Shown: positions 46,148 through 54,469 of the stretch, piece by piece
Position numbering within the stretch: position 1 is the first letter of the stretch
Layout of the letters: each line of letters opens with the position of its first letter
Origin: Candidatus Korobacter versatilis
GTDB lineage: Bacteria; Acidobacteriota; Terriglobia; Terriglobales; Acidobacteriaceae
Assembly: GCA_016185395.1 (NCBI GenBank)
Contig: JACPNR010000009.1
Location: forward strand, 1 to 64,000
DNA: 64,000 nucleotides
Reading direction: 5' to 3'
Notes under the pieces: model-generated
Databases searched by the model: none
Told to the model about the DNA's origin: nothing
The model's input: the letters and a program-made list of their open reading frames with translations, nothing else
Made by a program: the position numbers and the translations under genes

Positions 46148-46232
46148 CCTCCCTCAAGATTTGCATTGACCCGTCGCAGCCGGCCTCCATACCATGGCGC
46201 ACCCCCTTCGACACTCCTACTTGGAGGTCCCA

Positions 46233-47876
46233 ATGCGTCGCCTTCCGTTGCTTCTTCTGCTGATCGCAAGCTCCACGGGATTGTTTGCCCAGTCCGCCGG
46301 AAAGGTGGACCGCCTCGTCCCCGCGGGATTCATCGCGCGCGGCGCCAACAGCGCCGAAGCCAAGCAGGCCGACCCGGTGCAGTGGAACGACATCCTGCGC
46401 ACCAACGACGCCGGACGCATGCGCGTGGCGCTCGAGGATGGCTCCATGCTCTCCATCGGCGCGCACAGCGAGTTGCGCGTCGTGAAGCACGACGTGCAAT
46501 CGAACCAAACTCTCATCGAGATGCTTTACGGCAAGGCGCGCGCCAACGTCGTGCCCATCCGCAAGAACGGCGGCAGCTTCCAGGTGCGCACACCGACGGC
46601 GGTCATCGGCGTACTCGGCACCACGGTTACCGTCGAGACCACGCTCATGGACCGCGCTTCGGTGCAGTCGGTCGGAACGGTCACGAGGGAGGACATCCAG
46701 AACCTGCCAACGTCACGCCAAAACATCTCCGACCTGTTGCAGCTCGCGCCCGGCGCCATGCCCGACAAGAACGCGCCGGACAAGCCCAGCATCATGGACT
46801 ACAGCGTCGTCGACGGCACCATCGTCACCAGCCTCGACCACATCGTCGGCGTGCGCAACATCGATCCCGAGATCGTGAAGACGGTCTTCCTGTTGCCGGG
46901 CCAGTACACCTACGTCGGCCGAGGCCAACCCCCCACCGATCCGCAGTTCGGCAACCCGCACGCCGAAGACTGCTCGAAACCCGGAGTCTGCGACTGCACG
47001 GGTTCCTCCTGTTCCGACTTCTATTCCAACGCGCAACCGCAGGTCGACAAATCGCGTGCCGAACGGCCTGCGTTGACGCAGAAGGGCGTCCGCTTCCCGG
47101 CCATATGCGATTTCGAGAGCCTAACCGTTGCACTCGACAACGCGACGGCGGCCACAGGCCCCGGCCACTCCGGAGTGTCACGCGTCTTCGCTGACCAGAT
47201 CCATTACGAGATCACTGGGCGCGGAACCTCGACCGGCAACGTGTTCGACGTGACCGTAGAGAACGATAGCGAGTGCCCGCTCAAGCTGCAGATCCCGGCC
47301 GGCGTCGTGCTCGAGCCCACGGGATACACCGAACGTCTGGTCAAAGGCATCCTCCTGGGCGGCGGCATGCCTCCGCTCAAGGATTACCAAGTGATGATCG
47401 CCGAGGGCGGTTTCGGCGAGGTTCCAGCGCAAGGCGGCGCGTCTGACCTGCCCGTGATGTATTACTTTTTGCCTCCGGGCACTGAAAAAACGACCTTCAC
47501 GCTGCGCGGCTACTGCCTCGAAATCCACAAACTCGCGCCGCACCAGAAGACGAAGTACAAGTTCGCCGACGCGGACGAGGCGAAGCGCCTCTCCGCTCCC
47601 AACCTGAAGATCATGGAGACCGCCAACAAACTCTTCTTCACCGGCCAGGCGAACCCGCCCAACGCCTCGCTCGACAGCCTGGTGCAGTGGTCGCTATGGG
47701 CGAGCCGCGAAGGCCTTACCGACGGCAAAAAGTTCGAAGAGCAGTACGTCGGTCTCGTCGAGCGCAACTACAAGGCGCAGAACAAGAAGTTTGATAAGAA
47801 GACCAAGGAGAACGTGGAGCAGGTCGCGCAAGGATTCTGGCCGTACGTGCAGAAAGTCCTCGCCGCCTCGAAGTAA
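46233..47876 (+). CDS. Secreted FecR-domain protein with TonB-plug-like insert
   Basis: This exported 547-residue protein starts at an ATG behind TTGGAGG. It has a signal peptide (1-19) and a FecR-like beta domain (about 25-225) with MRVALEDGSMLSIGAHSEL and FQVRTPTAVIGVLGTTVTV. Residues 143-175 (VQSVGTVTREDIQNLPTSRQ...) resemble the plug motif of acidobacterial TonB-dependent receptors. A four-Cys cluster lies at 247-260, followed by an unrecognised C-terminal half with an alpha-helical end. No FecI-type sigma gene or receptor lies next to it. Confidence 0.72.
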   Translation: MRRLPLLLLLIASSTGLFAQSAGKVDRLVPAGFIARGANSAEAKQADPVQWNDILRTNDAGRMRVALEDGSMLSIGAHSELRVVKHDVQSNQTLIEMLYGKARANVVPIRKNGGSFQVRTPTAVIGVLGTTVTVETTLMDRASVQSVGTVTREDIQNLPTSRQNISDLLQLAPGAMPDKNAPDKPSIMDYSVVDGTIVTSLDHIVGVRNIDPEIVKTVFLLPGQYTYVGRGQPPTDPQFGNPHAEDCSKPGVCDCTGSSCSDFYSNAQPQVDKSRAERPALTQKGVRFPAICDFESLTVALDNATAATGPGHSGVSRVFADQIHYEITGRGTSTGNVFDVTVENDSECPLKLQIPAGVVLEPTGYTERLVKGILLGGGMPPLKDYQVMIAEGGFGEVPAQGGASDLPVMYYFLPPGTEKTTFTLRGYCLEIHKLAPHQKTKYKFADADEAKRLSAPNLKIMETANKLFFTGQANPPNASLDSLVQWSLWASREGLTDGKKFEEQYVGLVERNYKAQNKKFDKKTKENVEQVAQGFWPYVQKVLAASK

Positions 47877-52841: not shown

Positions 52842-53807
52842 ATGCTGATCAAGAAGCCTGCGGACATTCCGTCCTCCGAGATCACGCCACAGTCGGCCTA
52901 CGTGAGCCGTCGCAAGTTCATGGTGACGGCCGCAGTCGCGCTCGGCGCGGCTGCGGTGGCCTGCAACAAGGCAGCGGAAATGGCCTCCCCGCAAAAGGCG
53001 GAGGCCGCGGCGGCGAAGCTGCAGTTCACCAGGAACTCCGCGCTCTCGACCAGTGAGAAACCGAACAGCCTGAAAGAGATCTCCACCTACAACAATTTCT
53101 ACGAGTACGGCACCGACAAAAGCGACCCGGCGGAAAACGCCTGGAAGCTCCGCACGCGCCCGTGGACGGTGAGCATCGAAGGCGAAGTCAAAAAGCCGAA
53201 GACCTACGACATCGACCAGCTCACCAAGCTCGCGCCGCTCGAAGAGCGCATCTATCGCCATCGCTGTGTCGAGGGATGGTCGATGGTGATGCCCTGGCTC
53301 GGTTACTCGCTCTCCAATTTCATCAAGCAGTGCGAGCCCACGTCGAAAGCGAAGTACGTGCAGTTCGTCACCTTACAGGACCCGGAACAGATGCCGGGAC
53401 AAAAGACCGGCGTGCTCGACTGGCCCTACGTCGAAGGCCTGCGCATGGATGAAGCCATGCACCCGCTCGCGCTGCTTTGTTTCGGACTCTACGGCGAAGT
53501 CCTGCCCAACCAGAACGGCGCGCCCGTCCGCATGATCCTGCCGTGGAAGTACGGCTTCAAGAGCGGCAAGTCCATCGTGAAGTTCCGCTTCGTGGAGAAG
53601 CAGCCGCCGACCACGTGGAACATCTCCGCGCCCAGCGAGTACGGTTTTTATTCCAACGTGAATCCCGCCGTCGACCATCCGCGCTGGAGCCAGAAGACCG
53701 AGCGCCGCATCGGCGAGTTCCGCCGCCGCGACACGCTCATGTTCAACGGCTACGCCGGCCAGGTCGCTTCCCTCTACAGCGGCATGGACCTGCGGGCGAA
53801 TTACTGA
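52842..53807 (+). CDS. msrP: Methionine sulfoxide reductase catalytic subunit (molybdopterin, MsrP)
   Basis: MsrP (YedY) reduces methionine sulfoxide in exported proteins with molybdopterin. The 321-residue protein has a twin-arginine signal (SRRKF at 22-26 before [11 protein letters not shown]), the cofactor-ligand Cys142 in [11 protein letters not shown], and [13 protein letters not shown] and [19 protein letters not shown] for cofactor and substrate contacts. A second Cys41 could mimic a lipobox. It is coupled to msrQ by a TGATG overlap. Confidence 0.94.
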
Positions 53808-54469
53808 TGGCCTTCAACCTTCGCTGGCGCTGGTCGAAGGTCGTCGTGTTCCTGCTGTGCCTCCTACCGGCACTGGAGCTCGCGCTGCGCGCTTGGAACC
53901 AGTCGCGCGGCGTCGAACCCGACCTCGGCGTCAACCCGCTCGAGCACATCACGCGCGCGACCGGCGACTGGACGCTCCGCTTCCTCCTCATCACGCTCGC
54001 AATCACGCCGTTGCGCAAATTGCTGCAGCGGCCGGCGCTCATCCACTTCCGCCGCATGGCCGGGCTCTTCGCATTTTTCTATGGCTCGCTCCACTTCACG
54101 ACCTATCTCTGGTTCGACAAGGCGTTCGCGTGGAGCGAGATATTGCCAGACGTCGCCAAGCGCCGCTTCATCGCCGTCGGCTTCACCGCCTTCGTCCTGA
54201 TGCTGCCGCTGGCCATCACCTCGACCGGAGGATGGATACGCCGCCTGGGCGGCAAGCGCTGGCAGTGGCTGCACCGCCTCGTCTACTTCAGCGCGCTCGC
54301 CGGAGTCATCCACTACTGGTGGCTGGTGAAGTCGGATATCCGCAAACCGGCGATCTACGCCGGCATCCTCGCCGCCCTGCTGGTATACCGGATGGTCGTT
54401 TGGGTGCTGCCGTCGCAGCAGCACCATGCGGGAGCGCGCAAGCTCGCGACCGCGGAAACGGTGGAATAA
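53807..54469 (+). CDS. msrQ: Heme-binding membrane subunit MsrQ
   Basis: MsrQ (YedZ) carries electrons from the quinone pool to MsrP. The 220-residue protein has about six helices, with heme-ligand histidine candidates in GSLHFTTYLWFD, WQWLHRLVYF and AGVIHYWWLV, and the conserved NPLEHITRATGDWTL and LITLAITPLR blocks. Start codon ATG shares two bases with the msrP stop. Length and motifs are normal. Confidence 0.93.
   Translation: MAFNLRWRWSKVVVFLLCLLPALELALRAWNQSRGVEPDLGVNPLEHITRATGDWTLRFLLITLAITPLRKLLQRPALIHFRRMAGLFAFFYGSLHFTTYLWFDKAFAWSEILPDVAKRRFIAVGFTAFVLMLPLAITSTGGWIRRLGGKRWQWLHRLVYFSALAGVIHYWWLVKSDIRKPAIYAGILAALLVYRMVVWVLPSQQHHAGARKLATAETVE

Follow-up and report, generated by a model that had tools for sequence, protein, structure and literature searches.

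FecR-type sigma regulators have an N-terminal anti-sigma domain and a single transmembrane helix, and in the published system their CJM and STN subdomains contact the N-terminal signalling domain of the receptor, with no contact to the plug (PMC7186176). The STN subdomain is C-terminal, and genes for an ECF sigma factor and a receptor lie next to that of the regulator. The window (the whole 64,000-nucleotide stretch of DNA analysed here) encodes a protein with a FecR domain (Table 1). Pfam recognises this domain (PF04773) with an E-value of 1e-14 and 55.1 bits, against a curated cut-off of 24, over positions 46392–46640 (profile positions 2–82 of 97). The most likely start codon is the ATG at 46233, although translation could also begin further upstream, at the ATG at 46194 (open reading frame 46194–47876). 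I checked the translation, which includes ...VETTLMDRASVQSVGTVTREDIQNLPTSRQNISDLLQLAPGAMPDKNAPDKPSIMDYSVVDGTIV..., and a hydrophobic signal peptide is apparent in the sequence at approximately residues 1–21. An exported FecR-domain protein is the favoured reading, as predicted from this signal peptide.

The signal-peptide-like N-terminus leads directly into the FecR domain, and Pfam identified no anti-sigma domain in the protein. No transmembrane helix was found in it, and neither the protein nor its orthologue has a Pfam match to the STN subdomain. Pfam likewise revealed no sigma factor or receptor gene among the eight neighbours at 43.8–54.5 kb and two further open reading frames; the neighbours that it identified are murB, a molybdate transporter, a HlyD/ABC/MacB set and an MsrPQ-like pair. 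A classical FecR regulator is ruled out on these grounds, and the premise of the original prediction, that FecR proteins regulate TonB-dependent receptors, does not carry over to this signal-peptide-bearing protein. The MsrPQ-like pair (52842–54469) comprises a molybdopterin oxidoreductase and a ferric-reductase-like membrane protein, and in the same-genus genome G001 a similar oxidoreductase adjoins the FecR gene. Elsewhere in the genome of the window, a further FecR match of 26 bits lies inside a 1069-amino-acid open frame (L137, G000:C7:170284–170508).

Table 1. Features of the FecR-domain gene and of its insert, in window coordinates.
Feature	Position	Strand	Basis
FecR-domain protein, 547 aa	46233..47876	+	Signal peptide; start agrees with that of the orthologue
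N-terminal part of the FecR beta-domain, to strand VTVET, ~residues 41–137	46353..46643	+	PF04773; strands in the AF2 model
Plug-like insert, ~residues 138–195, between two FecR strands	46644..46817	+	Absent in 19 FecR homologues; profile matches to receptor plug N-termini
Similarity core QSVGTVTREDIQNLPTSRQNISDLLQLAPGAMPDKN, equivalent to the first part of the TonB plug	46665..46772	+	Profile alignments; Pfam Plug on the segment
C-terminal FecR strands (TIVTSLDHIVGVRN...LLPGQYTYVGRG)	46818..46928	+	Joined to the N-terminal part in insert-free homologues L063/L048; AF2 model
C-terminal domain, predicted beta part and helices	47193..47873	+	Common to G001, G025, G130 and G152; other N-termini in G535 and G588

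In order to place the insert relative to the FecR fold, 23 FecR domains were aligned. At the insert site, 19 homologues show a turn of a few residues, and the two halves of the domain are contiguous in the insert-free homologue L063. The best FecR paralogue in the same genome matches PF04773 over positions 1–96; the match in the window protein ends where the insert starts. Since 19 homologues carry a short turn instead, a native FecR loop is ruled out. The absence of the segment from these homologues, together with the point where the profile match stops, indicates an insertion into the FecR hairpin.

AF2 modelled the protein poorly over its full length (pLDDT 47), and the FecR domain was therefore refolded with a deeper alignment, that of the 23 FecR domains, giving a pTM of 0.81 and a mean pLDDT of 82.5. 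In this model the insert is located between a strand ending near residue 138 and one starting near residue 193, and EDIQN and SRQN within it each form a short helix. Its first part is modelled with a pLDDT of 42, and its second half with values of 76–84. A Foldseek search with the FecR-domain model returned 4m0h, a putative anti-sigma factor (E = 1.6e-6), and PupR 6ovk (E = 1.6e-5), which identifies the predicted host fold as a periplasmic domain of the FecR/PupR anti-sigma type.

The insert is ∼57 residues long, of which ∼45 carry the similarity to receptors. The Pfam Plug model (PF07715) matches it below threshold, with E = 0.014 for the whole window protein, 0.0032 for the segment alone, and 0.0019 at the same place in the orthologue L003 (16.3–19.1 bits for the window protein and the orthologue, against a curated cut-off of 23.9). 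This low score is attributable to the limited sensitivity of the model, as true receptors score alike: for genuine Oar-like receptors the E-values range from 9e-6 to 0.013, one of five has no match at E ≤ 0.1, and several true receptors of this lineage also fall under the curated cut-off. I also searched unselected genome targets. With a family profile of the whole gene, the matches in 398 genomes include, besides FecR proteins, three receptor open reading frames (E = 6e-7 to 4e-6), aligned at model positions 115–197. Of 100 related genomes, 90 contain receptor-sized open reading frames that an insert-only profile, built from two sequences, matches at E ≤ 0.01, with a best E-value of 5.5e-8. 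All five matched frames that were tested in Pfam possess OMP_b-brl_4 and CarboxypepD_reg domains, and four of them a Plug match, which confirms them as Oar-like receptors. In the receptor L095, the pre-plug strand is followed by GTVSEKQIASLPLNGRNVYDLIQLSPGAV; L003 has GTVSEKELENVPASRRNVADLINLVPGAM at this place, and the window protein GTVTREDIQNLPTSRQNISDLLQLAPGAM.

When the columns of the insert profile were shuffled 200 times, no shuffle scored above 16.3 bits, whereas the real profile reached 31.8, in a target set enriched by earlier matches; the reversed profile had no matches in that same set. Taken together, these alignments make it very probable that the insert is homologous to the start of a TonB receptor plug. 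The presence of such a segment within a FecR-domain protein, as originally predicted, is thus borne out by the Plug and FecR profiles, the insert-only profile and the controls, and the 19 homologues place it outside the normal FecR fold. Its location at 46647–46811 was also correctly assigned, but not its exact boundaries, as the insert is slightly wider. No beta-barrel match was found by Pfam in the window protein, and the insert has no relative among PDB sequences. A donor receptor was sought in the same genome, and none there fits the insert profile at E ≤ 0.01; the five Plug matches of this genome are located away from the FecR gene, and only two of these are Oar-like.

The protein L003, from the same-genus genome G001, is an orthologue with 63% identity over the full length, and retains the entire insert with 52–57% identity. 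Two species of another genus (G025 and G130, group g25) encode an orthologous protein in which the insert is shortened, to INTLADLTPGALPGPNMQQPTLADF in G025. These retain LxxLxPGALP...QPTxADF and are devoid of GTVTREDIQNLPTSR, such that the most plug-like half is missing. LxPGAxP and the P..xD of the next stretch are conserved in four orthologues; full orthologues number only four. Between the window gene and L003, dN/dS (NG86) is about as high in the insert (0.57) as in the FecR C-terminal part (0.58), and lower in the FecR N-terminal part (0.24) and the C-terminal domain (0.26). These values were computed on diverged, GC-biased sequences and are hence weak evidence of constraint. The insert appears to be under purifying selection, weakly so, and its GC3 matches that of the host gene. 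A search of the phylum with a profile of FecR plus insert yielded no further chimera; apart from one additional receptor, all that it retrieved were FecR proteins of the ordinary kind.

These observations are best explained if a fragment of an Oar-like receptor gene, encoding the start of the plug, was inserted in the beta-hairpin of a secreted FecR protein before the split of the window genus (g1) and g25. Capture may have occurred by illegitimate recombination, where the pre-plug strand of the receptor (V.V.GT.V.V.T) resembles the FecR strand VIGVLGTTVTVET, and the g25 form would have arisen by shortening of the insert. A captured receptor fragment is, with good confidence, the origin of the insert. 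The data thus fit the gene fusion that had been proposed as one possibility, and more exactly a receptor fragment placed inside a FecR hairpin. The fragment would now form a flap, folded in part, that packs against the FecR beta domain and has a local structural or binding role in the exported protein rather than one in receptor regulation. For capture and a retained role of this kind jointly, the balance of evidence is favourable, by less than for the origin taken by itself.

The main functional rival is that the fragment, captured in a permissive hairpin, is a tolerated and eroding relic devoid of function. The higher dN/dS of the insert compared to the FecR N-terminal part is consistent with this, as is the shorter g25 form. 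However, the dN/dS of the insert lies below 1, and between the two species it is conserved at a level near that of the FecR C-terminal part and the linker. A portion of the insert is also predicted to lie packed against the FecR domain, and the motifs described above persist in four orthologues. I consider a relic unlikely.

A relative from a third genus is encoded in genome G152 (group g89), the sole match in scans of genome contigs. It is a 1375-amino-acid open reading frame (L088, G152:C317) on the minus strand of JAFAIN010000316.1, which shares the FecR N-terminal part and the C-terminal domain with the window protein. A CarboxypepD_reg domain (Pfam, E = 3e-13) is found straight after the same FecR strand, and a duplicated hairpin shows 43% identity over 54 residues to the barrel region of a receptor-sized open reading frame. 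No plug trace was found in this protein. Since its FecR domain is recognised only weakly at the end, it is likely, but short of proof, that its receptor pieces occupy the same loop as the insert of the window protein. GC3 is even along the frame, with no sign of misassembly. The CarboxypepD_reg domain and the tandem barrel-like hairpin span approximately residues 505–1064, between the FecR and shared C-terminal domains, and the long N-terminus of the protein includes a Pro/Ala-rich stretch.

Because both lineages have parts of a receptor after the same FecR strand, a single larger receptor insertion in the common ancestor of g1, g25 and g89 could be envisaged, with different remnants kept in each (the plug start in one, CarboxypepD_reg and the barrel hairpin in the other). 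This seems rather improbable, given that G152 carries no plug trace, that the g1 and g25 proteins have no CarboxypepD_reg or barrel match, that the FecR end in G152 is poorly recognised, and that only one of the two g89 genomes has the gene. It is also very doubtful, if conceivable, that the FecR hairpin of this protein family serves, time and again, as a platform for the display of TonB receptor pieces (the plug start in g1 and g25, CarboxypepD_reg and the barrel hairpin in g89), as an exported decoy or assembly partner.

The C-terminal domain that these proteins share has no Pfam match and no PDB sequence relative. It is rare, occurring in five of the 398 family genomes; a 58-amino-acid open reading frame on the minus strand in G115 (L087, G115:C2) matches its last 40 residues only (E = 1e-8), and is a possible gene remnant. 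In two genomes from another family of the phylum (G535 and G588), it is present in three proteins, attached to different, unrelated N-termini.

There is also little to recommend a receptor mimic, in which the insert would imitate the start of the plug, and the exported protein would bind the receptor barrel or its partners, so as to compete with the plug or modulate the receptor. Two species of the genus retain the plug-like residues, other pieces of a receptor come directly after the same strand in G152, and the FecR fold is that of receptor-coupled sigma regulators such as PupR. The published contact, however, is between CJM/STN and the receptor signalling domain and does not involve the plug (PMC7186176). 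Searches of the window protein gave no STN, no transmembrane helix and no anti-sigma domain, and none of its neighbours was recognised as a receptor or sigma gene. In addition, the g25 proteins are without the most plug-like half, and none of the five Plug matches in the genome, only two of them Oar-like, fits the insert profile at E ≤ 0.01. Least probable of all is convergence of a native loop on a plug-like sequence, which the shortness of the segment and the sub-threshold Plug scores would permit, but which is disfavoured by the specificity for receptor-sized frames across genomes, the negative shuffles and the similar Plug scores of true receptors.

Under the preferred reading of a captured receptor fragment, a piece of an outer-membrane receptor smaller than a domain was taken up by an unrelated beta domain, and kept across the divergence of genera. 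A fragment of this size and similarity falls below the Pfam cut-off, and is overlooked by standard domain annotation; I found no paper on FecR-plug fusions. If the receptor pieces are functional, they would suggest that a type of receptor partner exists beyond the known sigma-regulator system.

Compared with known systems, the window protein resembles the FecR, PupR and FpvR sigma regulators in sequence and in predicted fold (4m0h/4m0n and PupR 6ovk), but is exported by a signal peptide, is devoid of the regulator parts, and carries the additional residues in its hairpin. The FecR domain is common to secreted Acidobacteriota proteins (L002, L038 and L048, 40–46% identity), which differ in having no insert and other C-terminal regions. 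L088 of G152 has in common with it the C-terminal domain, the FecR N-terminal part and receptor-like sequence after the same strand, and differs in the nature of the receptor pieces and in its long, unrelated N-terminus. With the plug of Oar-like receptors (PF07715, in the arrangement CarboxypepD_reg, plug and OMP_b-brl_4), the insert shares the motif GTV..xxIxNLPxxxRNxxDLxxLxPGA, its register and its spacing; of this receptor architecture the window gene clearly has the plug start only, held inside another domain.
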